Assembly (NCBI RefSeq): GCF_001050375.1 | Contig: NZ_KQ130488.1 | Location: forward strand, 1 to 64,000 | Reading direction: 5' to 3' | Origin: Catenovulum maritimum | GTDB lineage: Bacteria; Pseudomonadota; Gammaproteobacteria; Enterobacterales; Alteromonadaceae | Length of the DNA: 64,000 bases | Part shown: positions 12,557 to 62,673 of the stretch, in pieces | How the letters are laid out: each line of letters begins with the position of its first letter | Numbering within the stretch: position 1 is the stretch's first letter | Translations under genes and position numbers: made by a program | The notes under the pieces: model-generated | What the model saw: the letters and a program-made list of their open reading frames with translations, nothing else | Databases searched by the model: none | What the model was told of the DNA's origin: nothing

Positions 12557-14812
12557 ATGAAATTTCGCTTTCCAATCGTCGTCATTGATGAAGATTTCAG
12601 AGCAGAAAATATATCCGGTTCTAGTATCCGAGATCTTGCTGAATCTATCGGTAACGAAGGTATGGAAGTTATCGGCTTTACCAGTTACGTCGATTTAACT
12701 GCATTTGCACAGCAAGCTAGTAGAGCTTCTTGCTTTATCGTTTCAATTGACGATGAAGAATTTGGCGATGGTTCAACTGAAGCAGTTGAAAATGCCATTG
12801 CGCCATTACGTGCATTTATCAGAGCGGTGCGTAACCGAAATGCTGATATTCCGATTTTTTTATATGGCGAAACTAAAACCTCGCAACACATTCCAAATGA
12901 CGTACTGAGAGAACTACATGGCTTTATTCATATGTTTGAGGATACGCCAGAGTTTGTTGCAAAGCATATTATTAGAGAAGCTAAAAAATATTTAGATTCA
13001 TTAGCACCGCCGTTTTTTAATGCGTTAATGGATTATGCAAGTGATAGCTCTTACTCTTGGCATTGTCCTGGACACTCTGGTGGCGTCGCATTTTTAAAAA
13101 GCCCAGTTGGACAAATGTTTCACCAATTTTTTGGTGAAAATATGTTACGTGCGGATGTTTGTAATTCAGTAGATGAACTTGGGCAATTACTTGATCACAC
13201 AGGTCCTGTCGCTGCAAGCGAACAGAATGCGGCTCGCATATTTAATAGCGACCATCTATTTTTTGTGACGAATGGTACATCAACGTCTAATAAAATCGTT
13301 TGGCATTCAACTGTTGCCCCTGGAGATATAGTGGTGGTTGATCGTAACTGCCATAAATCTATTTTACATTCGATCATCATGACAGGTGCTATTCCAGTAT
13401 TTTTAATGCCAACACGAAATCATTACGGCATCATAGGCCCAATTCCTAAATCGGAATTTAGTCCTGAGTCGATTCAAAAGAAAATCGAAGCGAATCCATT
13501 TGCACGTAATGCTAAAAACAAAAAACCAAGGATTTTAACCATCACTCAAAGTACTTATGATGGCATCCTTTATAATGTTGAAGAAATTAAAGATATCTTA
13601 GGTAACACTATAGATACGTTACATTTTGACGAAGCTTGGTTACCACATGCCACCTTCCATGATTTTTACAAAAATATGCATGCTATAGGTACTGATAGAC
13701 CGAGATCTGATGACACTTTAGTGTTTTCAACTCAATCAACACATAAGTTGCTTGCTGGCTTGTCACAAGCATCACAAATTTTGGTACAAAATGGTAATAA
13801 TCGTAAATTAGATACACATAGATTTAATGAATCATACTTAATGCATTCATCTACTAGCCCGCAATACTCTATTATTGCCTCATGCGATGTCGCAGCCGCA
13901 ATGATGGAAGCCCCTGGTGGTAGAGCCTTGGTAGAAGAATCCTTGCTAGAAGCAATGGATTTTCGTCGTGCGATGCGTAAAGTTGATGACGAATTTGGGG
14001 ACGACGATTGGTGGTTTAAAGTTTGGGGACCAGACACAATTGCAGAGGAAGGTGTTGGTGAGCGCGAAGACTGGGTAATCCGCCAAGGTGATAACTGGCA
14101 TGATTTTGGTGATATTGAGACTGGTTTCAACATGCTTGATCCAATCAAAGCAACCATAATCACCCCAGGACTCAATGTGAAAGGTGATTTTGACGACACA
14201 GGCATACCTGCGGCGATTGTCAGCAAGTATCTTGCAGAGCATGGCATCATCATTGAAAAAACCGGTCTATATTCATTCTTTATCATGTTTACTATCGGCA
14301 TTACCAAAGGCCGTTGGAACTCCATGGTGACAGAGTTACAGCAGTTTAAAGATGACTACGACCAAAATTTACCTTTATGGCGAGTGTTACCTGAGTTTGT
14401 GAGCAAACATAAACAATATGAAAGAGTTGGTTTAAGAGATTTATGTCAAAGCATTCATTCTATGTATAAAAAATACAATGTCGCAAAAATTACGACTGAT
14501 ATGTATTTGTCTAACATAGAGCCAGCTATGACACCAGCGGATGCTTGGGCGAAAATGGCGCATAGAGAAATTGAGCGAGTTTCAATTGATGAGATAGAAG
14601 GCAGAATCACTGCAATGTTAGTTACGCCTTATCCTCCAGGTATACCATTAATGGTACCGGGAGAGCGATTCAACAAAACCATTATTAGCTACTTACAGTT
14701 TGCCCGTGATTTTAATTCTGAATTTCCTGGGTTTGAAACTGACGTGCATGGTTTAGTAAAAGAAACAATAAATGGCGTTGAAGGTTATTATATTGATGTT
14801 GTAAAAGATTAA
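12557..14812 (+). CDS. ldcA: Orn/Lys/Arg decarboxylase, LdcA-like (fold type I, PLP)
   Basis: A 751-aa decarboxylase with an N-terminal receiver-like wing domain (about residues 1-145), a PLP-binding core with the Schiff-base lysine in STQSTHKLLAGLSQAS, and a C-terminal domain ending TPYPPGIPLMVPGERF. Length and sequence resemble the Pseudomonas lysine decarboxylase LdcA (751 aa, cadaverine-forming) more than CadA/AdiA of enterics. Lysine is the favoured substrate, but arginine or ornithine cannot be excluded by eye. The ATG at 12557 is 9 bases from AAGGA; an ATG two codons earlier is only 3 bases away, so the later start is chosen. Coupling to the upstream PaeA-like exporter suggests a make-and-export diamine module. 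Confidence 0.88.
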   Translation: MKFRFPIVVIDEDFRAENISGSSIRDLAESIGNEGMEVIGFTSYVDLTAFAQQASRASCFIVSIDDEEFGDGSTEAVENAIAPLRAFIRAVRNRNADIPIFLYGETKTSQHIPNDVLRELHGFIHMFEDTPEFVAKHIIREAKKYLDSLAPPFFNALMDYASDSSYSWHCPGHSGGVAFLKSPVGQMFHQFFGENMLRADVCNSVDELGQLLDHTGPVAASEQNAARIFNSDHLFFVTNGTSTSNKIVWHSTVAPGDIVVVDRNCHKSILHSIIMTGAIPVFLMPTRNHYGIIGPIPKSEFSPESIQKKIEANPFARNAKNKKPRILTITQSTYDGILYNVEEIKDILGNTIDTLHFDEAWLPHATFHDFYKNMHAIGTDRPRSDDTLVFSTQSTHKLLAGLSQASQILVQNGNNRKLDTHRFNESYLMHSSTSPQYSIIASCDVAAAMMEAPGGRALVEESLLEAMDFRRAMRKVDDEFGDDDWWFKVWGPDTIAEEGVGEREDWVIRQGDNWHDFGDIETGFNMLDPIKATIITPGLNVKGDFDDTGIPAAIVSKYLAEHGIIIEKTGLYSFFIMFTIGITKGRWNSMVTELQQFKDDYDQNLPLWRVLPEFVSKHKQYERVGLRDLCQSIHSMYKKYNVAKITTDMYLSNIEPAMTPADAWAKMAHREIERVSIDEIEGRITAMLVTPYPPGIPLMVPGERFNKTIISYLQFARDFNSEFPGFETDVHGLVKETINGVEGYYIDVVKD

Positions 14813-14835
14813 TCTAACCTAGTTTTGAGAATCAT

Positions 14836-14865
14836 AGCAGGCGGATAGCCATGTCCCCTGCTTTA
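14836..14865 (+). terminator. Possible terminator after ldcA
   Basis: GCAGG (14837-14841) pairs with CCTGC (14857-14861), extended by GGA/TCC inside, then a T-rich tail. It lies 24 bases after the decarboxylase stop and would separate it from the TonB receptor. Confidence 0.5.
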
Positions 14866-15003
14866 TCTTTAACCAGCCTAAAGCTGACCCAATCAACATA
14901 AAAGATCACCAATAAAAAAGTTAGATAAAACTTAACTTAAGCTATTCATTTCCTTTATAGTTCACCCACCTTAATTTAAAGTAAACGAACAGAAGCTTTC
15001 TTT

Positions 15004-33612: not shown

Positions 33613-34863
33613 TTAAATGCATCTTATTTTGGGAATATCCAACCATCGAGTTGTATATTGAGGCGATAATAAAGCCCTACGCATTTTCCATTGACTCACT
33701 TGCTCTGCGCTTGAAATATATAAAGTACCTTGCCCATATTTATGGTTAATTGCATCATAAGAACGCATCAACAAATCTTTTTCTCTACTCAATTCGAATA
33801 AATCAAACTGAGTGAAACTAGCATTAACTAACTCTAGTGCTCCCAAGCCGCACTTATAAAATTGAATGTTAGGCAAATAAATTTGATCGACCAAGGCTGA
33901 AACTGCATTGGCAATATTTAAACTGTCACTGGTTGGTGTAACGAAATCGTGTATATATTCTCGCTTTATATAGGCAGGATCAAACCGAGAGGTATGAGCA
34001 AATATTAATAACCTTTTCACCTTTGAATTTTGTTGTCTTAATTTTCGTCCAATAATATCAGCATGGGTAATTAATGCTGAGTTAAGGTTAAATTTATCCG
34101 TAACTCTTTGGCCAAAGCTTCGTGTTGAAAAGATTTCTTTTTTGGGTTGTTTAACTTCGTCCCAACTAAAACAAACTTCGCCATTCAGCTCTCGTACCGT
34201 TTTTTCTAATACCACAGAATGGAAATCTCGCATTTTTTTAGCGCTTTGTTGAGCAAGCTCCCACGCATTAGATAAACCAAGTAAAGCTAAGCGTTTAGAT
34301 AACCTGGAACCAATTCCCCAAATATCTGCCAGCTTCATTTGTTTCAATATGTATTCAGCTTGTTCCAAGTTATCAATAACAGCAACTCCATTAAAGCCAA
34401 CTAACTTTTTAGCGGCATGGTTAGCGACTTTAGCCAAAGTTGGAGTCATGCCAAAACCAACGCCTACAGGTAACTTAGTTTCGCGCCATACCGTGCTGCG
34501 GATCAGCTCACCGTATTCACGCCAATTACCTAATTTTTGACTAAATAATAAAAAGGATTCATCAATTGAGTAAACATGTTGCTCCGAACAGAATCGTCCA
34601 ATCACAGCCATCATTCGGGCGGATAAATCAGCATAGAGTTCATAATTTGAAGAACGCACCACAACATTATGCTGATCTAAATACTTTTTTAACTTAAAGT
34701 AAGGCTCAAATTTTGGGATATTTAAAGTTTTAGCAATTGGGCAGACCGCGCAGATACAGCCATCGTTGTTTGTGAGCACAACAACAGGTTTATGACGTAT
34801 GCTTGGATCAAATACTTTTTCAGCTGAAGCGTAAAAAGAGACAGCGTCGACTAACGCATACAT
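33613..34863 (-). CDS. umuC: DNA polymerase V catalytic subunit UmuC
   Basis: Y-family translesion polymerase, 416 aa. The catalytic acids are in MYALVDAVSFYAS (Asp6) and VYSIDESFLLFS (Asp/Glu near residue 100), with the steric-gate region SFYAS and the thumb helix-hairpin-helix ADIWGIGSRLSKRLALLG. The C-terminal little-finger domain and the UmuC-specific tail (about 360-416) are present. The start overlaps the end of umuD by 13 bases, so the pair is translationally coupled. Induced through the LexA box in front of umuD. Confidence 0.95.
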   Translation of the reverse strand: MYALVDAVSFYASAEKVFDPSIRHKPVVVLTNNDGCICAVCPIAKTLNIPKFEPYFKLKKYLDQHNVVVRSSNYELYADLSARMMAVIGRFCSEQHVYSIDESFLLFSQKLGNWREYGELIRSTVWRETKLPVGVGFGMTPTLAKVANHAAKKLVGFNGVAVIDNLEQAEYILKQMKLADIWGIGSRLSKRLALLGLSNAWELAQQSAKKMRDFHSVVLEKTVRELNGEVCFSWDEVKQPKKEIFSTRSFGQRVTDKFNLNSALITHADIIGRKLRQQNSKVKRLLIFAHTSRFDPAYIKREYIHDFVTPTSDSLNIANAVSALVDQIYLPNIQFYKCGLGALELVNASFTQFDLFELSREKDLLMRSYDAINHKYGQGTLYISSAEQVSQWKMRRALLSPQYTTRWLDIPKIRCI

Positions 34864-35279
34864 TCGGTTAACTCATGAAATGGCATATCGTGATTTCTAA
34901 TTGAACATACAACGACGCCTTCTATTCTAAACTCATCTATTTCAGAAATAGAAACTGGCTTATAAACTGTATTCGCCGATAGTAAAACACGACGGTTTTT
35001 ATCTAATAACTTACAAATAAACTCCCCGTTGTAATTGGCGACAATCACACTCATTTGCTTAGTATTAACTGCTCTATCAACTATCAGTAAATCCTTATCG
35101 AAAATTCCAACCCCTTGCATTGAATCACCGCAGGCAATGCCGATAAAGGTAGCTTCTGGATGCTTAATCAGTAGTTGATCTAAAGACAAACCTAACTGAG
35201 TGTATTCAGCTGCCGGCGATTCAAAACCAACAATGCCAGCACTCGCATAAATAGGAACGACTTTCATTTTACCCGCCAA
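34851..35279 (-). CDS. umuD: UmuD-like autoprotease subunit of DNA polymerase V
   Basis: A 142-aa LexA/UmuD-family serine protease that self-cleaves with RecA help to form the active Pol V subunit. The Ser53 of CGDSMQG and Lys90 of GEFICKLL keep the 37-residue spacing of E. coli Ser60/Lys97. By alignment with the E. coli site (Cys24-Gly25, followed by FPSPAADY) the scissile bond is Val17-Gly18 before FESPAAEY, instead of the usual Cys/Ala-Gly. The N-terminal arm is 7 residues shorter. It overlaps umuC by 13 bases. Confidence 0.94.
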   Translation of the reverse strand: MAGKMKVVPIYASAGIVGFESPAAEYTQLGLSLDQLLIKHPEATFIGIACGDSMQGVGIFDKDLLIVDRAVNTKQMSVIVANYNGEFICKLLDKNRRVLLSANTVYKPVSISEIDEFRIEGVVVCSIRNHDMPFHELTECMR

Positions 35280-35775: not shown

Positions 35776-38700
35776 TTAATTATTCGCAATTAATACAAAA
35801 TCATCTGCGTAATAATCACCGCCTTGGTTATTCCACATAAAGATATTATGCGTTTGCTCAGCATTACCCGTCGTGAAAGTTAAAGTATATAACTGATAAC
35901 CACCAGCATTGTTTACCTGTGCATTATCTAAGGTTGCACCTGTCGCTAAGTTGGTCACACCTAACCAGAAGCTTTGGCCGTTATTAGCTACTCGAGCATT
36001 AACTGTTAATGTGTATTGAGTATTAGCGGCTAAAGTAACATTGTAGTTAAAGCTCCCTGCTCCATCGACAAAGGCAACATTGTTACCACTATCCGCTTGT
36101 ACACTAGCTGCACCGTTTAATGTCCAGCCAGCTGAGCCATTACTAAAGTCTGAATTACCAATTAAATTATCTGTCACTATATCTAAAACAACTGAGTCAG
36201 ATAAATTATTCACTGTCGTCGCTGTAATGGTAACACTTCCTTCTGCTATGGCTGTGACAACCCCATTCGCATTAACTGTTGCAATATTATTGTTACTTGA
36301 TGTGTAGGTGACTGTATCATCGTCCACATTATTTGGCGTTACGTTTGCATTTAACTGAAGCGTGTCGCCAATCGTTAAACCTGCTTGTGATGAAGTTAGC
36401 TCAATTTGTGCTGGTAAACTAGCCTGCTCTCCAGCTACCAAGACAAAATCATCTGCATAATAATCGCCACCACCATTATTCCAAATAAAAATATTGTGCA
36501 ATCTTTGTGAACCTGCGGTTGTAAATGTCAGGGTATGCGTTTGATAACCTGTATTAGTCACACTTGTGCTCACTAAATTATTTGGTGCCGCGGCATTAGA
36601 TATATCCGTTACGCCAAGGTAAAAACTATCACCTTGGTTACCAACTCTAGCATTAACCGTTAGCGTATATTGAGTGTTTGCAGCTAGCGTAATATTGTAG
36701 TTAAAACTCCCCGCACCATCGACATACGCAACATTGTCGCCATTGTCATTTTGTACGCTTGCTGCACCATTTAACATCCAACCATTGGCGTTTGTTTCAA
36801 AGCCTGAATTAGCAATTAAATTTTCTGGGTGAAGGTTAATCACAACTGAATCCGACAGCTCAGGCGCTGCGACAGAAGTAGCTGTAATGGTTACTGCCTG
36901 AGTTGATGAAGTGGCGTGAGCAGTGACTAAACCATTCGCATTAACCGATAATAAGGCTGAATTACTAGATGTATAAGTCACTGAAGTATCTGTCGTATTA
37001 TTCGGTGTAAGATTAACATTCAGCTGAGCTGTTTCATTTAAACTTAAATCAGTCACAGGTGAAGTCAGCTCAATTTCCGTTGGTAACACAGGTCCAATTG
37101 TCTGCCCTACAAGATCAAAGTCATAAGCATAATAATCACCACCACCATTATTCCAAATAAAGATATTATGGTTTCTTTCACCAGCATAATTGGCCGTGGT
37201 AAAAGTTAAAGTCTGCAATTGATAGCTAGTATCAGTAATTGGTGTATTACCTAGATTTGTCGTGCTGACTAAGTCAGTCACACCAAGCCAGAAGCTCTCA
37301 CCTTGATTCGCAACTCGTGCCATTGCGGTTAAGGTATACTGTGTATTGCCCGACAGAGCTAGGTTCAAATTAAAGCTACCTGCACCGTCAATATGAGCAA
37401 CATTATTGTATCCATTATCTGTGATCACATTAGTATTACCAGCAGTTGTCCATTCTGCGCTGCCAGGTTGTGGCAGTGAAGCATCTGAATCACAAGGATC
37501 ACATGGACTACAAGGTTGGCAACCACCACCTCCATTATCATTGTCATTACCAGGTTCTCCCTCAGGTAAAATTAAATTATCGATATTAAAACCTTGAGGT
37601 GGTGCAACAAAAGCTTGGGCTGGTATGCCCTGACCTAACCAGTTTTCAGGAATATTACCAAACACTAAAGCATCAGGCTGCATAGGCTGACGACGTCGAT
37701 CATCTGGTGCATTAACCGAATTATCTAATGTTAAAGCGGCAATACTAAGTGTCGGGCGCTCATTAACTGGTTCCATGTGACAACTTAAACAAAATGCATT
37801 TTGCGATGAATCAGGTCTAGGATGGTTTCTTAACAAAGGGCCTTCAGGAAAGTTAATACTTTCACGTACACTAACAAGACCATTTGGAATATTGCCTAAA
37901 TGCGCTGCGTAATCAGCAGTATAGTCATGGTAGCAAACATATTCTGGGTAACTAGTTTCGTTGTTATCAGCTAGCGTATTAGTAATTTCAGCATGTGTAC
38001 TAGCAGGATAACTTGCTGCCATATTTTGCCAATTATTTTCAGCATTTGCTGTCACACCGGTTAAAGTACCATTAGCATGATTACACGCCACTTCCGCATT
38101 CACCTCTTCCGCTAAAATTTTAAATTCATCAATCCAGCCTCTAAAACCAGTCGCATCACCTTGCCCAACTAATAAATTACCTGGTGTTAATTGAAATAGC
38201 GCTAAATTGTTGGCGGTTGAAAAAGTATCAATCGTCATACCGTTTATATAAGTACGAATATCTGTATTGCCATTCGTTAACTGGAACGCAATATGCGACC
38301 AAGCATTGGCTGAAATTTCAATTGGTGAAGTAATGACATGTAATTGAGCACCCGCAGCATTAAAAAATACAATTTGATCATTACCACGTAAACGAATTTC
38401 ACTACCATCAGGGAATGACATCAAGTTACGCGTACCACCTGTATCTCTAGGGTCAACAAAAATGCTGTAATACCAGTTTGAGGCTAAAACATTACGATTT
38501 TGAGCCGCAATCGTAAATTCAATACCATCGTTTTGTCCATCTAACCACAAGCCTTTACCATGAATACCACCATTGCTAATAGGTTCAACCCTTGCATCTG
38601 AGTTGTTCACGTTTTCTAATAAACGCCCGCGATCAGGAATAATCCACTCATTAGTTGGAATTGTTCCATTTAAATTAGGTCGACCACCTGTCGCTGCGTT

Positions 38701-40233
38701 TTGCACATGATTATGAGATTCACCACGAACATTATTATCTGCAACGTTCACAGCATAAGTCATATTGGCATTAATAAAGCTATTCGGATTCAAATAATCA
38801 TCAAAACGAACCTCATCAGTACTTCGGCCTGTACTCATTAACCAAGTCACATCCGCAGGAGAAACAGGACGCATATTAAAGTGATAGTTAAATCTATGTT
38901 CATTGGTATCAAAAAAATTAGTGTTAGCAGAGTTACTTGCAGGCATCAAAGAATACTCACGTTGACGACCCATCCCCACTCGCTTGGGCACGCCATCATC
39001 GTATAAATTGAAATTACGCTGCTGAGTTAGCATAAAATCTGAGTGGTTAAGTTGATTATCCAGTACCACCATTTTACCGCGCGTCCATAAGCCCATCATT
39101 GAACGACCTTGGAAGTTAGATCCTTCTTCCATAGAAACGCCATTAAAACGAGGACCACATACCTCACCGGCAACACAAGAAGCTTGAATACCCGTGCGAC
39201 TTCTAAAATCGTTTAAAGAATCAAAGTAACCAGTAAACGCAATATTTGCACCGTCTTTATCCATCCAAGGGTAACTACCAAACTCATAGTTTTCACCGAT
39301 TAAATCACCTTCAGCATCTCGAAATGGCTGCATAGCTAGGCCATAACGAGTATTGATAGTGTCATCATAAGGCGCATGTGCCATTGGACGAATATCACTC
39401 GCTTGCCATTGTCTAACATCGCATGGACCATAAGCCGGATTATCAATATTTTCTGGCACTATATAAGTGATATCAGAATGGCCATTATTGCGTTGGTTAC
39501 CGTTATTATCAAACCATCTATAGTTACTATTATTACCAACACGCATTACCATCATACGACCATCGCTGGTGATGGTTGGCTCAAAAAATGATGCTAAACC
39601 ATTAATCGTTGGTCCAGTAATTTGATTTGTGACTGTGACATCAGCAATTTGTGCATCAACAGTTTTTGGACTTTGTACTCGTACTCGAACATCAATGCCA
39701 TAAATAGTACGCGAGGCACCGTTATTATTACCACTACCTCTGATAAGCGTTAAATCATAGCAATCAAAAACCCCGTTATTTTGTTCTACCCCGTTAGCGT
39801 TACACGCGTAAGGGTTATTACGGCCTGGATTGTCAGGCGCTAAAGTCGCATCACATAAACCAGCATGAGCTTGACCACCACTACCTAAAATTTGGGCAGT
39901 GGGTATAGTCGCTTGATCAGGCGCATCTTGATTAGGAAAAGCAAGAATTTCTGTACCTGCTGCTGAATTCATAAATGGTGTATTCAATTTTTCAGGTACT
40001 AATAAGCGAAATGCTACACGTGCGTCAGTTGTTAAATTTTGTGGTCTATGTGCTACACCAATTCTACCATCGGCGCTCGTTTGTAAAGGTGGGATAGTCG
40101 GAGCAATGTATTGAGGCTCACCTTGAATAGTCTCTTGCATATGTACGTCACGATCTATTGTTGGACGCTCTGGTAATGCGACAGCTTGCGAGCTAGCAAG
40201 TGCGAGCAGCAGTGCTGATTTAATGATCTTCAT
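35776..40233 (-). CDS. Large secreted modular protein: LamG-like domain, c-type heme motif, Big2 domains and repeated beta modules
   Basis: A 1485-aa exported protein (signal peptide cleaved near QAVA-LP). Residues 30-530 are a long domain with propeller-like segments that I cannot name. Residues about 555-720 look like a LamG/concanavalin-type lectin domain (GIHGKGLWLDGQNDGIEF; NAWSHIAFQL). A single c-type heme motif CLSCH (Cys815, Cys818, His819) follows. A Pro/Cys/Gly linker (about 895-920) has the repeat CQPCSPCDPC. The C-terminal third alternates three carbohydrate-binding-like modules with two Big2 domains. Heme attachment, if real, makes it a periplasmic or surface redox/sensor protein. 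A hydrazine-synthase-alpha-like architecture is one untested idea. Confidence 0.75.
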   Translation of the reverse strand: MKIIKSALLLALASSQAVALPERPTIDRDVHMQETIQGEPQYIAPTIPPLQTSADGRIGVAHRPQNLTTDARVAFRLLVPEKLNTPFMNSAAGTEILAFPNQDAPDQATIPTAQILGSGGQAHAGLCDATLAPDNPGRNNPYACNANGVEQNNGVFDCYDLTLIRGSGNNNGASRTIYGIDVRVRVQSPKTVDAQIADVTVTNQITGPTINGLASFFEPTITSDGRMMVMRVGNNSNYRWFDNNGNQRNNGHSDITYIVPENIDNPAYGPCDVRQWQASDIRPMAHAPYDDTINTRYGLAMQPFRDAEGDLIGENYEFGSYPWMDKDGANIAFTGYFDSLNDFRSRTGIQASCVAGEVCGPRFNGVSMEEGSNFQGRSMMGLWTRGKMVVLDNQLNHSDFMLTQQRNFNLYDDGVPKRVGMGRQREYSLMPASNSANTNFFDTNEHRFNYHFNMRPVSPADVTWLMSTGRSTDEVRFDDYLNPNSFINANMTYAVNVADNNVRGESHNHVQNAATGGRPNLNGTIPTNEWIIPDRGRLLENVNNSDARVEPISNGGIHGKGLWLDGQNDGIEFTIAAQNRNVLASNWYYSIFVDPRDTGGTRNLMSFPDGSEIRLRGNDQIVFFNAAGAQLHVITSPIEISANAWSHIAFQLTNGNTDIRTYINGMTIDTFSTANNLALFQLTPGNLLVGQGDATGFRGWIDEFKILAEEVNAEVACNHANGTLTGVTANAENNWQNMAASYPASTHAEITNTLADNNETSYPEYVCYHDYTADYAAHLGNIPNGLVSVRESINFPEGPLLRNHPRPDSSQNAFCLSCHMEPVNERPTLSIAALTLDNSVNAPDDRRRQPMQPDALVFGNIPENWLGQGIPAQAFVAPPQGFNIDNLILPEGEPGNDNDNGGGGCQPCSPCDPCDSDASLPQPGSAEWTTAGNTNVITDNGYNNVAHIDGAGSFNLNLALSGNTQYTLTAMARVANQGESFWLGVTDLVSTTNLGNTPITDTSYQLQTLTFTTANYAGERNHNIFIWNNGGGDYYAYDFDLVGQTIGPVLPTEIELTSPVTDLSLNETAQLNVNLTPNNTTDTSVTYTSSNSALLSVNANGLVTAHATSSTQAVTITATSVAAPELSDSVVINLHPENLIANSGFETNANGWMLNGAASVQNDNGDNVAYVDGAGSFNYNITLAANTQYTLTVNARVGNQGDSFYLGVTDISNAAAPNNLVSTSVTNTGYQTHTLTFTTAGSQRLHNIFIWNNGGGDYYADDFVLVAGEQASLPAQIELTSSQAGLTIGDTLQLNANVTPNNVDDDTVTYTSSNNNIATVNANGVVTAIAEGSVTITATTVNNLSDSVVLDIVTDNLIGNSDFSNGSAGWTLNGAASVQADSGNNVAFVDGAGSFNYNVTLAANTQYTLTVNARVANNGQSFWLGVTNLATGATLDNAQVNNAGGYQLYTLTFTTGNAEQTHNIFMWNNQGGDYYADDFVLIANN
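35779..37460 (-). repeat. Three tandem repeats coding the C-terminal modules
   Basis: Three copies of a roughly 400-bp unit encode modules sharing AHIDGAGSFN/AYVDGAGSFN/AFVDGAGSFN, QYTLT-ARV and HNIFIWNNGGGDYYADDF-like blocks. They are centred near 35980, 36620 and 37270 and separated by Big2-coding segments. DNA identity is high in places (for example around 35797, 36441 and 37112), so slippage or recombination could change copy number. Confidence 0.85.
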
Positions 40234-40730: not shown

Positions 40731-40747
40731 CCAGTATTAGATACTGG
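40731..40747 (-). terminator. Hairpin at the 3' end of tRNA-Trp
   Basis: CCAGTAT and ATACTGG pair around TAG. On the minus strand it begins inside the encoded CCA end, so it may be a processing or termination structure. No T run follows. Confidence 0.45.
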
Positions 40748-40821
40748 CAGGGGCGGAGGGATTCGAACCCCCAACCGTCGGTTTTGGAGACCGCTGTTCT
40801 ACCAATTGGAACTACGCCCCT
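40745..40821 (-). tRNA. tRNA-Trp (anticodon CCA)
   Basis: Minus strand: acceptor stem AGGGGCG/CGCCCCT, D-arm GTTC...GAAC, anticodon loop CTCCAAA with anticodon CCA, T-arm GGGGGTTCGAATCCCTC, discriminator G and encoded CCA. It is 77 nt with the CCA, one base longer in the D-loop than the E. coli tRNA. It stands alone, with its own consensus promoter. Confidence 0.97.
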
Positions 40822-46547: not shown

Positions 46548-48572
<2,025 letters not shown>

Positions 48573-48612
48573 TTAAGCTTAAATCGTTTTTAGCAGAGAA
48601 CATTTAGATGTT

Positions 48613-48702
48613 TACTCTTGTTTCCTACGCTGGTTTTACCCAGATCAGGTTCGACGGATCCCACTTACGCGATCTCAGCCCTACGGCACTCCGACAAGTT
48701 TC
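48613..48702 (-). promoter_or_regulatory. TPP riboswitch (THI box) upstream of thiC
   Basis: Minus strand: P1 arm CTTGTCGGAGTGCC, the CTGAGATCGC pyrimidine-sensing block, GGATCCGTCGAACCTGATC and the closing CCAGCGTAGGAAACAAGAG, in the canonical order. The 5' CTTGT and 3' ACAAG ends close the helix. It lies about 150 bases before thiC, with room for an expression platform. When TPP is bound it should switch off the operon. Confidence 0.97.
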
Positions 48703-48917
48703 GAGCAAAGTATATCGATTTCGCAAAAATTTAAAAGCATTAAATCAATTATAAGTCTTTATTTGATTAAGCCTGCAAGCTAGATATTTGCTCAAAATGT
48801 CTAAAATAGCGTTAAAAAATAATTTATTAGACATGAGTTAACTTGTAATTCTGATAGATTAAATTAATAATCCTTTAATGGACTTAAAATTAAAATGACA
48901 ACCATCTAGCAATCTAA
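48703..48917. other. Divergent intergenic region, no gene seen
   Basis: AT-rich region between the thiC riboswitch and the receiver-TPR gene. It must hold promoters for both directions, but none is clear enough to call. Confidence 0.4.
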
Positions 48918-54181: not shown

Positions 54182-57100
54182 ATGTTAATTAATTTTGGCT
54201 CCAGCCTTTTTGTACGCTTACTATCTAGCTTTATTATTGTTGCTTTAATCCCGATCGTATTCACTATTTACCGTGACGCAACGGAAACTAAACAAGCAAT
54301 CAATAAAAGTAATTATCTATCACTTCGCGCTTCATCATTGAAAGTAAATCAAACTATAGATCACTTTATAAATCAACAAGTGGATAGAATAACTTTATTT
54401 TCTCATCTCATAATCGAGAAAAAACTGAAAGCAAGCTGGATAGATGAGGCACCTAGAGCAAAATTTCAAGCTTTGTTAACAGATTTCTCAAATATAAAGG
54501 TTAACCAAATAACCCCAAATAGCGTCGCTATCTATAATAACAAAGGCCAAATAATTGTTGCTAGTACAGAAGATATTGACAACAACATTAGCTCAAATCC
54601 TATTTTCAACCAATTATTTCACACTAACAACCATTACAAGATAGGGTTTAATCAAAATAAATTACAATTCGTAGTAAAAATCTTTGATGCTGCTGGTATA
54701 AGTTCAATTCTATTAGTTGATTTTTTAGCTGACGACCTTAAAAGTCTCATTCCGTTAACGGCTGATACTGGGCTGATTCATATTTTGATTAATGAGAAGT
54801 ATCAAAGCCTAATTAATATTTCTGACAATGGTCACAAGATAACTCAAATATCCACTGAACAAGCCTATAACTTAAATAAGCATACAAAAAACACCCCATA
54901 CTTTATTCAGCTAGATCAGGAAAAATTTCAAACTGAATATGCCGCCCACTTAACACCTATTTCACATAATAATTGGGCAGTCGTAACTTTAGAAAATTCT
55001 GAAAGTTTTCTAAAGCCTATGAGTGATATTTTCCGTACTAGCATTTGGCTGATACTGATTACCCTAGGTTTAGTTATCTTAGTCGCGAGTGCAGCCGCTA
55101 GCTTATTTGCCCAGCCGATTGTCGACATGACCAAGCTCGCTCTCAAAATGGCGCATGGTAATCTAACCTTAAGAGTAGAAACCCCATCTAAAGATGAAAT
55201 AGGTACATTAGCAAAAGCCTTTAATTATATGGCTGAGAGGCTAGCAAGAAGAAACCAAGAACTTAAGCGAAAACAGCAGCAACTCAAACGTGCACAAACT
55301 TTGGCTAAATGTGGTAGCTTTGAATTGTCCAATGAAAAATTAATGTTTTGGTCAGATGAATTATTTACTATTTTAGAGTTAGAAAAAGACAACAGCCGCC
55401 CCAAACTTGCAACATTAATCAAAAGCCTAGGTGACAAATTTGGTCATGAGTTTGAAAAACAACTAACCCACCTCACCACTTCAAGTACACAAGAATCATG
55501 CATGCTGGAATCATGGCTAACTTTGCCAAGTGGCATTGAAAAATATCTTGTCATCAAAATAGAAAAAGATAGCACAGGTGAAGACTTTATCTTAATGGGG
55601 ACTATCAATGACGTCACAGAAGAGAAACTAGCTCAAGCTGAACTAAAACAGAGTCAAGAAAGACTCAGCTATGCACTAGAAGCAACAAATGATGGGATGT
55701 GGGATTGGAATTTAATAACCAATCAAGTTTATTTTAGTCCGAGATGGTTTGAGATGCTCGGTTATAAAGCAAACGAACTGCCCGCCACACTAGAAACTTT
55801 CCAATTTTTAATCGATCCACAAGACAAGAGTGAATTAGAAGAAATAATAACCAAAATTATAACAGGGGAAAGCTTTGAAATAGATCATGAGTTTAGAATG
55901 ATCAATAAATCAGGCACCTCAGTTTGGATCCATTCTAGAGGGACGACAGTAGAGTTCAGTAATGACAATACTACCACTCGAATGGTCGGGACTCATACCA
56001 ATGTCACGGAAAGAAAAAATATAGAACAAAAGTTAACCAAGTTGAACGAAGAGCTAGAAAATCGTGTTAATGAAAGAACCCAACAGTTAGAAGCTAGCCA
56101 TGAAAAATTAACCAGTGCAAAAAATAAAGCAGAACTGGCGAATAAAACTAAAAGTGACTTTTTAGCGAATATGAGTCACGAGATCAGAACACCATTGAAT
56201 GCGATTGTCGGTTTAAGTAACTTATTAACCAAAACAACACTCAACCCAATACAAAAAAGGCATGTCAAAAACATAGAAAAGTCGTCTGAAAATCTACTTT
56301 CTATCATTAACGACATACTCGATTTCTCAAAAATCGAAGCCGGTAAACTAACGATAGAAAACGTCAGCTTTAACTTATCAGAAATTTTATCGAATATATC
56401 TGATATCTTTGCGCACAAGGCACACCAAAAGGGCTTAGAATTTATCGTCAATATAGATCCTAGTGTGCCGACTTATTTAATTGGTGACCCTTACAGACTC
56501 AATCAAATTATCACTAACCTCTTGAGTAACTCACTAAAATTTACTCATCAGGGACAAATAGAGATTCAAATAAGAATCGTTATGGCGACAGATTATAAAG
56601 TAACGATAAAATTCTCGGTAACCGATACGGGTATAGGTTTAACCGAAAGCCAAAAAACAAAATTATTCAATTCATTCACTCAAGCCGATACCTCGACAAC
56701 TAGAGAGTATGGTGGTACAGGTTTAGGCTTAACGATTTGCCGCCAACTCTGCCATTTAATGGATGGAGAAATCAATATTGAAGACAAGCAAACTTCAGGC
56801 TCAACATTTTCTTTTATTATACCGTTTAAAATAGATTCAACACCTAAAGCTGTATTAGAGCTAACAGTTGCGGAGCATAAAAACAGCCGAGTATTAGTCA
56901 TTGACGACAACTGCACCAACGCAGACATGATAACCAGTATGCTGACAACTTTTGGCTTAAAAGCCACATGTGGCTACTCTGGTGAAGATGCCATTAGTAT
57001 TTGCGATACCGCTCAAGACTATTTCGATATTTGTATTCTCGATTGGCAAATGCCGTCTGGTCTAACTGGTAAAGAAACAATCCACGCACTGCAACAGCAT

Positions 57101-58396
57101 GATCAGTGTAAAAACGCTCAATTTATCATAATGCATAATACTGAAATAAGCCCGAGCATAGCCAAAGAGTTAAATGACGAGACACTCATTAGCCTGTATA
57201 AACCGATTAATAGCTCGCAACTGTTTAAAATTATTACCCGAATTTTAAACAACCAGCCTATCCACCAAAAACACGAAGTGGAAATAACGCCAATCTCGAG
57301 TGATAAATTTACCCAAATCAAAGTATTACTCGTTGAAGACAATGAAATAAATCAAGAGATAGCTCAAGCCCTTTTAAGTTACCACGGTATGGCTGTGACC
57401 ATAGCTGAAAATGGGCAAGTTGCAGTTGATATGTTGAACAAAGCTTTAGTCGACCATTTTAAATTTGATATTGTGTTAATGGATATTCAAATGCCGGTTA
57501 TGGATGGTTATGAAGCAACCAAGCAAATCAGGCAAATTCCAGAATATACATCCCTACCAATTATAGCCATGACAGCCAACGCCATGACTCAAGATAAAGA
57601 CCTTTGCCTAGCTTCAGGCATGAATGATCATATAGGCAAACCGATAAATGAAAAACTATTATTAGATAGCATTTCAGATTGGTTAGGACGGGACTGTATT
57701 TCACCTGAACTAAAAGAGGCACAAGAGATAAGTCTAGAACAGGTAAAAATTACCAATGAAATCAAACCAAATGAGTCTATCGATAAGCAATATCAGGGCT
57801 TTGAAACATTTGATATAGAATTCGCTAAAAATCAGTTGGCCGGTAATATCAATTTATTATTGAAAATGATGAATCGATTTAATGACGAATTTTCAACCTA
57901 CGCATCTCAAATAGCTAAAGACCTAGCCGAAAATGAAACTGATAATGCAAAAAATAAGCTACACACATTAAAAGGGGTTGCGGGCAATCTAGGTTTACAA
58001 AAACTACATCATATTTGTAAAGACTTTGAACATGAAATAAAACAAAACCAAGTTGAAGAATTAGATTATTACTTAGCTCAACTTAATGAGATCATTGTCA
58101 TCAGTTTGCAGGCATCTGAAGATTTTTGCCAAGACAATAACGTAGAGGATAAATCGAGGATAAAATTAGCCGAGATAGAAGCAACAAGACTGACCCAAAT
58201 AAAACAACAGATCGCCACTTTAAAAACCATGCTAGCGAATGACGAATTTATCAGCGAGGATGATTTATCAATATTACAACCCCTTGCGCAAACAGAGCAT
58301 AACCAGATTTATCAAACCTTACTTGACGCAATAGAAAACTTTGAAGGGCAAGCGGCCAATGAAGCGTTAGCAGAAATAATGAAACTATTAGAATAA
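54182..58396 (+). CDS. Hybrid sensor histidine kinase with two receivers and an HPt domain
   Basis: A 1404-aa membrane kinase. Domain order: membrane helix (about 10-28), a periplasmic sensor of about 250 residues (Cache-like, not identified further), membrane helix (about 286-308), HAMP (to about 362), two PAS domains (about 375-475 and 495-610), coiled coil, HisKA with His666 (FLANMSHEIRTPLNAIVG), HATPase (about 770-880), receiver 1 (VIDD, Asp in ILDWQMPSG about 953), receiver 2 (VEDN, Asp in LMDIQMPVMDG about 1101) and HPt (LHTLKGVAGNLG, about 1261). No response regulator is adjacent, so its target is unknown. Confidence 0.93.
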   Translation: MLINFGSSLFVRLLSSFIIVALIPIVFTIYRDATETKQAINKSNYLSLRASSLKVNQTIDHFINQQVDRITLFSHLIIEKKLKASWIDEAPRAKFQALLTDFSNIKVNQITPNSVAIYNNKGQIIVASTEDIDNNISSNPIFNQLFHTNNHYKIGFNQNKLQFVVKIFDAAGISSILLVDFLADDLKSLIPLTADTGLIHILINEKYQSLINISDNGHKITQISTEQAYNLNKHTKNTPYFIQLDQEKFQTEYAAHLTPISHNNWAVVTLENSESFLKPMSDIFRTSIWLILITLGLVILVASAAASLFAQPIVDMTKLALKMAHGNLTLRVETPSKDEIGTLAKAFNYMAERLARRNQELKRKQQQLKRAQTLAKCGSFELSNEKLMFWSDELFTILELEKDNSRPKLATLIKSLGDKFGHEFEKQLTHLTTSSTQESCMLESWLTLPSGIEKYLVIKIEKDSTGEDFILMGTINDVTEEKLAQAELKQSQERLSYALEATNDGMWDWNLITNQVYFSPRWFEMLGYKANELPATLETFQFLIDPQDKSELEEIITKIITGESFEIDHEFRMINKSGTSVWIHSRGTTVEFSNDNTTTRMVGTHTNVTERKNIEQKLTKLNEELENRVNERTQQLEASHEKLTSAKNKAELANKTKSDFLANMSHEIRTPLNAIVGLSNLLTKTTLNPIQKRHVKNIEKSSENLLSIINDILDFSKIEAGKLTIENVSFNLSEILSNISDIFAHKAHQKGLEFIVNIDPSVPTYLIGDPYRLNQIITNLLSNSLKFTHQGQIEIQIRIVMATDYKVTIKFSVTDTGIGLTESQKTKLFNSFTQADTSTTREYGGTGLGLTICRQLCHLMDGEINIEDKQTSGSTFSFIIPFKIDSTPKAVLELTVAEHKNSRVLVIDDNCTNADMITSMLTTFGLKATCGYSGEDAISICDTAQDYFDICILDWQMPSGLTGKETIHALQQHDQCKNAQFIIMHNTEISPSIAKELNDETLISLYKPINSSQLFKIITRILNNQPIHQKHEVEITPISSDKFTQIKVLLVEDNEINQEIAQALLSYHGMAVTIAENGQVAVDMLNKALVDHFKFDIVLMDIQMPVMDGYEATKQIRQIPEYTSLPIIAMTANAMTQDKDLCLASGMNDHIGKPINEKLLLDSISDWLGRDCISPELKEAQEISLEQVKITNEIKPNESIDKQYQGFETFDIEFAKNQLAGNINLLLKMMNRFNDEFSTYASQIAKDLAENETDNAKNKLHTLKGVAGNLGLQKLHHICKDFEHEIKQNQVEELDYYLAQLNEIIVISLQASEDFCQDNNVEDKSRIKLAEIEATRLTQIKQQIATLKTMLANDEFISEDDLSILQPLAQTEHNQIYQTLLDAIENFEGQAANEALAEIMKLLE

Positions 58397-61858: not shown

Positions 61859-62159
61859 CCTCACAGATTTTTAACTCCACTTACTTTTTCTTTTTCTTTT
61901 TCTTCGCTATTTTGATAATAGCTTCACCTCGAATAACAAGTTGATTGTGTTTTTTTTATACAATTAAATCGAAAAAACCTTTACAAGCGCTAATAAATCT
62001 ATACTATGCCCTCAGCTTAAAAGAAAAGCGTTTTTATATTTCAGTTTGTGTTACTCCTTCGTAGTTAGACCTTCCTAAAATTTTTAATAACATCTTTGCT
62101 TTATAGCTTGCGAGCCTGATAACAGGCAATTTATATATTTCAATTTTTAGGTAATAATT
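61859..62159 (+). other. Leader region of the cold-shock gene, with pyrimidine tract
   Basis: Contains a (CTTTTT)n pyrimidine tract just after bfd, then the csp promoter at 61980-62007, then a leader of about 146 nt with a small GCCTG/CAGGC hairpin (about 62114-62127). Long leaders are usual for cold-shock mRNAs. No other gene is seen. Confidence 0.5.
61980..62007 (+). promoter_or_regulatory. Sigma-70 promoter of the cold-shock gene
   Basis: TTTACA (61980-61985), a 16-bp spacer and TACTAT (62002-62007), which places the start about 62014 and gives a long 5' leader. Confidence 0.6.
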
Positions 62160-62366
62160 ATGTCTACAACTACTGGTACAGTAAAATGGTTTAACGAAAC
62201 TAAAGGTTTTGGTTTTATCGAGCAAGAAAATGGTCCAGACCTTTTCGCACATTTCAGCGCAATCCAAAGCTCAGGTTTCAAAACTTTAGCTGAAGGTCAA
62301 AAAGTACAGTTTACTGTTGCTCAAGGCCAAAAAGGTCCTCAAGCTGAAAATATCGTTTGTATCTAA
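62160..62366 (+). CDS. Cold-shock protein (CspA family)
   Basis: A 68-aa OB-fold nucleic-acid chaperone. RNP1 is KGFGFIEQ and RNP2 is LFAHFSAI (usual VFVHFS). Preceded by a long leader that could form the cold-sensing structure known in cspA. The start ATG is used without an obvious alternative. Confidence 0.95.
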
Positions 62367-62387
62367 TTTACAAAAGATAGCTTGAAT

Positions 62388-62414
62388 AAATCACCTAGTT
62401 CTCTAGGTGATTTA
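62388..62414 (+). terminator. Terminator of the cold-shock gene
   Basis: AAATCACCTAG and CTAGGTGATTT pair perfectly around TTCT, 22 bases after the stop; the tail is AT-rich. Confidence 0.8.
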
Positions 62415-62673
62415 TAAATACAAAATAACAACAATTCATCCCCATAACACATCAATAAACACTGCTTAATTCCAACAATTTACCACAAGTATTTACACTT
62501 CAACCTAGCAAATTTAAATAGATGACAAAAGTCATTAAAATCTCTTTCTAAAAGCTTCTAATCCAGTATATTAAAACTAAATTTTATTTTTCTTTATTTT
62601 AAAGCCGACTACAATAAAAACTGCGCTTAAATCAAGATCTTGATTCACATAATAAATAATAGATGACTGGACT
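62415..62673. other. AT-rich intergenic region upstream of the GH15-like gene
   Basis: About 260 bases without a coding frame; presumed to contain the promoter of the GH15-like gene, none clear. Confidence 0.35.

Follow-up and report, generated by a model that had tools for sequence, protein, structure and literature searches.

What is a single heme c attachment motif doing in a large secreted protein built from lectin-like and adhesive parts? The question is raised by a gene of the gammaproteobacterium Catenovulum maritimum (Alteromonadaceae), which lies in the first 64,000 nucleotides of contig NZ_KQ130488.1 (assembly GCF_001050375.1). We call this whole stretch the window, and the gene and its product the window gene and the window protein. 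An initial annotation, made from the sequence alone, described a 1485-residue open reading frame (ORF) with a LamG domain, one CLSCH motif, three repeated modules and two Big2 domains, and this layout was confirmed by the ORF itself, by Pfam and by comparison of the modules (Table 1). We found nothing on the window protein in the open-licence literature of PubMed Central. The answer that we propose, tentatively when its whole chain of steps is considered, is an exported monoheme c-type cytochrome that is targeted to carbohydrate and would relay electrons at a galactan of the carrageenan type.

Conservation of the heme motif

The search for relatives used the first 935 residues of the window protein as well as profiles. 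Fifteen sequences were aligned, namely the window protein and 14 others that are 87 to 30% identical to it. Both cysteines and the histidine of the CxxCH motif were invariant in all 15, down to 30% identity, and the residues between the cysteines varied (LS, LG, LT, TS, LV and HS). Because C, C and H are invariant while the X residues vary, the motif is no accident. From the composition of the window protein, 0.0023 CxxCH motifs would be expected by chance, and one was observed. The motif on an exported lectin-like scaffold, which the initial annotation had singled out as unusual, is thus a conserved character of a protein family.

Three further residues, C717, H747 and C767, were invariant (15/15) in the same domain of about 180 residues, which also conserves R806, P807, N812, F814, D845 and the stretch R847-R848-Q849-P850-x-Q852. 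Besides the histidine of CxxCH, H747 is the only invariant histidine of the domain. As this second histidine and the two cysteines are invariant in the domain that holds CxxCH, a bis-histidine heme c would be the simplest reading. Met851 was rejected as an axial ligand: it is Met in just 9 of the 15 members, and it is unlikely to hold this role because the other six have Leu, Phe or Ile. Exactly ten cysteines (eight plus the two of CxxCH) were counted in 8 of the 15 proteins, a number that would fit four disulfides and the heme pair. The Cys/Pro linker CQPCSPCDPC, to which the initial annotation had also drawn attention, does follow CLSCH in the window protein but is absent from the other 14 aligned members, none of which has a CxxC besides CxxCH. 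It was rejected as a functional metal site, being present in the window protein only.

A check for cytochrome c maturation genes, suggested in the initial annotation, revealed a gene for CcmE, of the heme c maturation system, in the window genome (E = 2e-32). The N-terminus appeared signal-like by eye in members with an intact start. One ORF (locus L040, G071:C123) begins inside the N-terminal region and is without the first ~165 profile residues. The window protein very probably binds a heme covalently, and we consider heme binding together with export highly likely.

Conserved core and variable tails

Laminin_G_3 (PF13385) matched the window protein when residues 20-905 were scanned (E = 2.7e-11; score 44.3 bits, cut-off 27.6). 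The match was seen only without the tail; a scan of the whole protein gave none even at E ≤ 10. The domain was found in 12 of 13 members at E ≤ 1. At the C-terminal end, the three modules had pairwise identities of 60, 61 and 66%, and the third matched a solved 169-residue chain, 8xmz, in a PDB sequence comparison (E = 1.1e-7). Phage-type Ig matches in PHROGs were mostly matches of the Big_2 regions.

The initial annotation could put no name to the first 500 or so residues, and neither could we: the N-terminal region, about 535 residues long, gave nothing above chance in Pfam, NCBIfam or PDB. Propeller-like DG strands were noticed in it by eye only. The region has many invariant positions, with K190, D272, D306, W323, D325, W383, K387, D392, E445, D478, D479, R548 and E550 invariant across the 15 members. 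Beyond LamG, Big_2 and other tail domains, the family had no Pfam or NCBIfam match in the scans made here.

The C-terminal tails differ from member to member. The window protein has three modules and two Big_2 domains, the members at L033 and L017 have Big_2, and that at L040 has PKD and Fn3. No domain was matched in the tails of L035, L037 and L041, and the two members at L036 are almost tail-less. The L055 member ends with GGG, a hydrophobic stretch and Arg residues, presumably a GlyGly-CTERM-like anchor, and the N-terminus of the L056 member is lipobox-like by eye. Because the tails vary while the rest stays conserved, the functional unit is, by this pattern of conservation, the N-terminal region with LamG and the heme domain, and the anchoring or adhesion parts are exchangeable.

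These tails bear on the possibility that the protein is a surface adhesin or glycan sensor, in which the heme, or a metal at CxxCH, would be structural or redox-sensing and LamG and the C-terminal modules would attach the cell to algae. Parts such as LamG, Big_2 and repeated modules are typical of adhesion, and the free variation of the tails, up to their near absence at L036, would suit such a role. However, the tails are dispensable across the family and the heme motif and N-terminal region are not, and we regard a mere adhesin or sensor as distinctly unlikely.

The distribution of the family is patchy. Within the genus, 2 of 8 genomes carry a family gene, with different surroundings in the two, and the taxonomic family has it in 9 of 295 genomes. 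Matches were obtained in 4 of 60 relatives (E ≤ 0.001), in 6 of 394 genomes of the order sample and in 7 of 369 of the class sample; those restricted to LamG (2/4, 4/6 and 4/7 genomes, respectively) were left out of the family, and two of the order matches and three of the class matches are full-length. The phylum sample gave 2 of 398 genomes, both from the same taxonomic family as the window genome. With the heme domain alone as query, 3 of 340 class genomes matched, always in the full architecture. One single-sequence scan of genome contigs found three close relatives. Two genomes (G000 and G114) have two members each, which fall in two clades of the tree. A plasmid or phage origin was rejected, as there was no plasmid match for the two members tested and no viral-contig match with the two profiles tested.

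Gene neighbourhoods of the relatives

The Pfam scans of the neighbourhoods covered a selection of genes. Of 14 members, 6 had a gene of glycoside hydrolase family 16 (GH16) within 20 kb, compared with 0.53 expected (P = 5e-6 if independent); this statistic treats the members as independent and ignores contig ends. When only a single member was kept from a pair of neighbouring copies, and likewise from a pair of near-identical genus mates, GH16 was near 4 of 12 members (P = 7e-4). The glycoside hydrolases near members comprised two GH16 at L032, an alpha-amylase at L033, GH31 at L034, GH16 with a sulfatase at L035, GH127 at L036, GH42 at L037, three GH16 at L038 and GH2 at L039.

Five neighbour enzymes were compared with PDB. 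The best matches of GH16 enzymes at L032, L035 and L038 were kappa-carrageenases (E = 6e-60, 5e-54 and 2.5e-57, respectively). At L017, an MR_MLE gene 315 bp after the family member had its best match in 5olc (E = 2.8e-99), which is described as the carrageenan-pathway enzyme DauB (PMC5698469). There is a 4-base overlap between this gene and an aldehyde dehydrogenase gene; an overlap of the anhydrogalactose dehydrogenase and cycloisomerase genes is described for Colwellia agarivorans QM50 (PMC6952198). The members at L032, L035, L038 and L017, which lie beside carrageenan-specific enzymes, belong to separate clades of the family tree. The family is thus linked to red-algal galactan degradation by gene neighbourhoods, and a role in the use of such galactans is likely for most of its Alteromonadaceae members.

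In L032 we also observed, at 12768-15001 (-), genes for a 3-keto-disaccharide hydrolase and an SGL protein adjoining the paralog and the two GH16 genes. A 3-keto-glycoside route within this carrageenan cluster is possible. The SGL gene belongs to PF08450, a family that is also reported as part of TERTU_3803 of Teredinibacter turnerae (PMC10916295).

Redox genes near the relatives

Two loci encode, close to the family gene, a xanthine-dehydrogenase-type molybdenum oxidoreductase that carries a twin-arginine translocation (TAT) signal: L034 (2922-5611, within 2.2 kb) and L037 (11720-14523, within 0.8 kb). No cytochrome subunit was found among ORFs of at least 150 residues beside these two oxidoreductases.

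An octaheme TPR cytochrome gene lies 271 bp upstream of a member at L036 and within 7 kb at L037. The two cytochromes (L036 12108-14291 and L037 17539-19770) have TPR repeats and similar CxxCH spacing. As these were the only two loci, the octaheme cytochrome was rejected as a general partner. The same genes would favour a terminal part of respiratory extracellular electron transfer, in which the protein would deliver electrons to insoluble acceptors and at the same time keep cells attached to algae. The initial annotation had listed extracellular electron transfer among its suggestions; it gained no direct support in the window. The protein has a single heme motif, the octaheme neighbour is confined to the two loci, and no porin-cytochrome genes were found among the neighbours scanned. 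We consider the respiratory role very improbable.

Proposed mechanism and its alternatives

In the relay that we propose, the Ccm system would attach one heme c at C815 and C818, with H819 as the proximal and H747 as the distal ligand, and C717 and C767 would form a disulfide. LamG and the C-terminal modules would hold the heme against a red-algal galactan of the carrageenan type. The heme would then carry electrons between an acceptor and a partner enzyme that oxidises sugars or uses oxygen; this would parallel the proposal for Cbp2D in cellulose degradation. Candidate partners are the periplasmic molybdenum aldehyde oxidoreductases near two relatives.

Several observations weigh against this proposal. 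A search of 177635 PDB sequences with the heme-domain profile returned no cytochrome at E ≤ 10. In Pfam scans of 13 members, the only cytochrome families to match were PSCyt1 (E = 0.12) and Cytochrome_CBB3 (E = 0.19), each in one member. AlphaFold2 runs with four sequences gave mean predicted local distance difference test (pLDDT) scores of 27.7 and 32.2, which lend the fold and the ligation by H747 no structural support. LPMO_10, a family of lytic polysaccharide monooxygenases (LPMOs), was absent from the window genome (other LPMO families were not searched), which leaves such a protein without its best known acceptor; a role as LPMO electron donor in this genome was rejected on this result. 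Of the polysaccharide-oxidising or sensing role put forward in the initial annotation, the link to polysaccharides is supported by the neighbourhoods of relatives but not by that of the window gene, which does not lie beside carrageenan-specific enzymes and has no recognised carbohydrate gene beside it. The second GH16 enzyme of L032 had its best PDB match in 9ijc, known only as GH16 and not named a carrageenase. Finally, no such neighbour was seen among the genes examined at the four most divergent loci, L040, L041, L055 and L056.

The lack of a recognised cytochrome fold in Pfam and in the PDB profile search, together with a heme predicted from sequence only, would also suit a protein whose CxxCH carries no heme (e.g. 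with zinc or a disulfide instead) and which is an ordinary LamG lectin. However, the exact CxxCH and a second invariant histidine are kept in 15/15 members, the protein is exported and the organism carries CcmE; such a lectin is improbable.

Another explanation is that the protein is an enzyme and not a carrier: a five-coordinate heme, or one with a labile ligand, would carry out an oxidative attack on the galactan or on its 3,6-anhydro sugar, or would act as a peroxidase. The invariant residues of the N-terminal region are more than a spacer would need, and the window genome is without LPMO_10 to receive electrons. Against catalysis, neither Pfam nor the PDB profiles gave a sequence match to any known heme enzyme, and the invariant second histidine suggests six-coordination and therefore electron transfer. 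We consider the catalytic explanation unlikely. Its boldest form, in which heme c enzymes of a new class would attack carrageenan or its 3,6-anhydrogalactose units oxidatively outside the cell, with a catalytic N-terminal region and LamG as substrate clamp, is quite improbable. Electron transfer rather than catalysis is the function that we favour, with some confidence.

Comparison with known systems

PSCyt1 (PF07635) of planctomycetes, a short domain with a single CxxCH, occurs in large secreted proteins, some of which also have LamG-like parts. In the family studied here it matched one of 13 members, and this match was not significant. Hydrazine synthase alpha, whose fold the initial annotation had offered as a possibility, is a large secreted heme c protein with several hemes, whereas the window protein has one CxxCH. 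The suggestion was not supported and was rejected: there was no Pfam match to it in the 13 members and no PDB match with the profiles of the N-terminal region and the heme domain.

The layout of the window protein may be compared with that of Cbp2D and Cbp2E of Cellvibrio japonicus, which are described as joining CBM2 to a YceI-like X158 domain, Cbp2D also having X183 and X132 with CxxCH (PMC12542752, PMC8981238). Cellvibrio is reported to need them in order to grow on insoluble cellulose (PMC12542752). Like the window protein, they are secreted and modular and join carbohydrate-binding parts to single-CxxCH domains (PMC12542752; PMC8981238). The substrate context is carrageenan here and cellulose there, and the window genome, as noted, has no LPMO_10. 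CBM2, CBM10 and the YceI-like X158 had no Pfam match in the whole window protein or in its tail. Nor was X183 matched, as the heme-domain profile found no PDB cytochrome, assuming that X183 entries are within that PDB copy. The parallel to Cbp2D may be seen as an analogy of function and layout.

TERTU_2913 and TERTU_3803 of T. turnerae are described as large extracellular proteins with a jelly-roll lectin-like X122 domain beside the c-type cytochrome X183, and as having an X132 domain with a CxxCH of novel sequence (PMC10916295). They thus resemble the window protein in joining lectin-like and cytochrome c domains. In that report, the X183 cytochromes failed to supply an LPMO with electrons under the conditions used (PMC10916295). 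In their X183 domains the heme is ligated by His and Met, whereas in the window family the nearest Met that could serve is not conserved; TERTU_2913 is described with several hemes per protein, against one CxxCH here; and DUF1687, named for the TERTU proteins (PMC10916295), is absent from the Pfam matches of the window family.

The carrageenan clusters of Zobellia and Colwellia contain kappa-carrageenase and DauA/DauB, and the same kinds of enzymes surround several family members. The words cytochrome and LamG are absent from the main text of the two papers on these clusters (PMC5698469 and PMC6952198).

Features of the window gene and its surroundings

Table 1. Features of the window gene, in positions of the window
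Feature	Positions	Strand	Remarks
Whole coding sequence	35776..40233	-	ATG start, 1485 aa, stop included, open throughout
Signal-peptide-like N-terminus, residues 1-19	40177..40233	-	Boundary judged by eye from sequence
N-terminal region, residues 20-555	38569..40176	-	Family-conserved; six Cys common to most members
LamG domain (Laminin_G_3), residues 580-713	38095..38496	-	Pfam match
Heme-motif domain, residues 714-893	37555..38094	-	Invariant C717, H747, C767, C815, C818, H819; RRQPxQ motif
CLSCH heme c attachment motif, residues 815-819	37777..37791	-	Kept in 15/15 members
H747, candidate second axial ligand	37993..37995	-	Invariant in 15/15 members
Cys/Pro linker CQPCSPCDPC, residues 905-914	37492..37521	-	Without conservation in the family
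Carbohydrate-binding-like module 1, ~residues 916-1050	37084..37488	-	60-61% identity to modules 2 and 3
Big_2 domain 1, residues 1052-1120	36874..37080	-	Pfam match
Carbohydrate-binding-like module 2, ~residues 1136-1270	36424..36828	-	Module-repeat comparison
Big_2 domain 2, residues 1276-1341	36211..36408	-	Pfam match
Carbohydrate-binding-like module 3, residues 1351-1485	35779..36183	-	Repeat comparison; PDB 8xmz match

The window gene stands alone between a tRNA-Trp gene and umuDC, near thiamine genes. The tRNA-Trp gene (40745-40821, -) is about 0.5 kb upstream, and the UmuD/UmuC-like error-prone polymerase pair (33613-35279, -) is directly downstream. Taken with the patchy distribution within the genus, the tRNA-Trp gene could indicate an insertion site. 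A thiamine pyrophosphate (TPP) riboswitch (48605-48703, -) precedes thiC (46548-48521), and the run of thiamine genes extends down to 41823. Elsewhere in the window we observed a hybrid histidine kinase of 1404 residues, BarA/TorS-like (54182-58396, +), and a match to the cspA thermoregulator RNA (61997-62417, +, 82.6 bits).

Implications for carrageenan degradation

The carrageenan pathway described for Zobellia and Colwellia consists of hydrolases, sulfatases and cytoplasmic anhydrosugar enzymes. The neighbourhoods of the family suggest that carrageenan breakdown includes a redox step that has yet to be described. If our proposal is true, an exported heme protein that recurs beside carrageenan genes would add an extracellular redox step to this pathway, and the polysaccharide-bound cytochromes of the Cbp2D kind would be matched, on another polysaccharide, by a protein that differs in sequence. 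If instead the protein were an enzyme that attacks carrageenan oxidatively, the family would do for the degradation of red-algal galactans what lytic polysaccharide monooxygenases do elsewhere.

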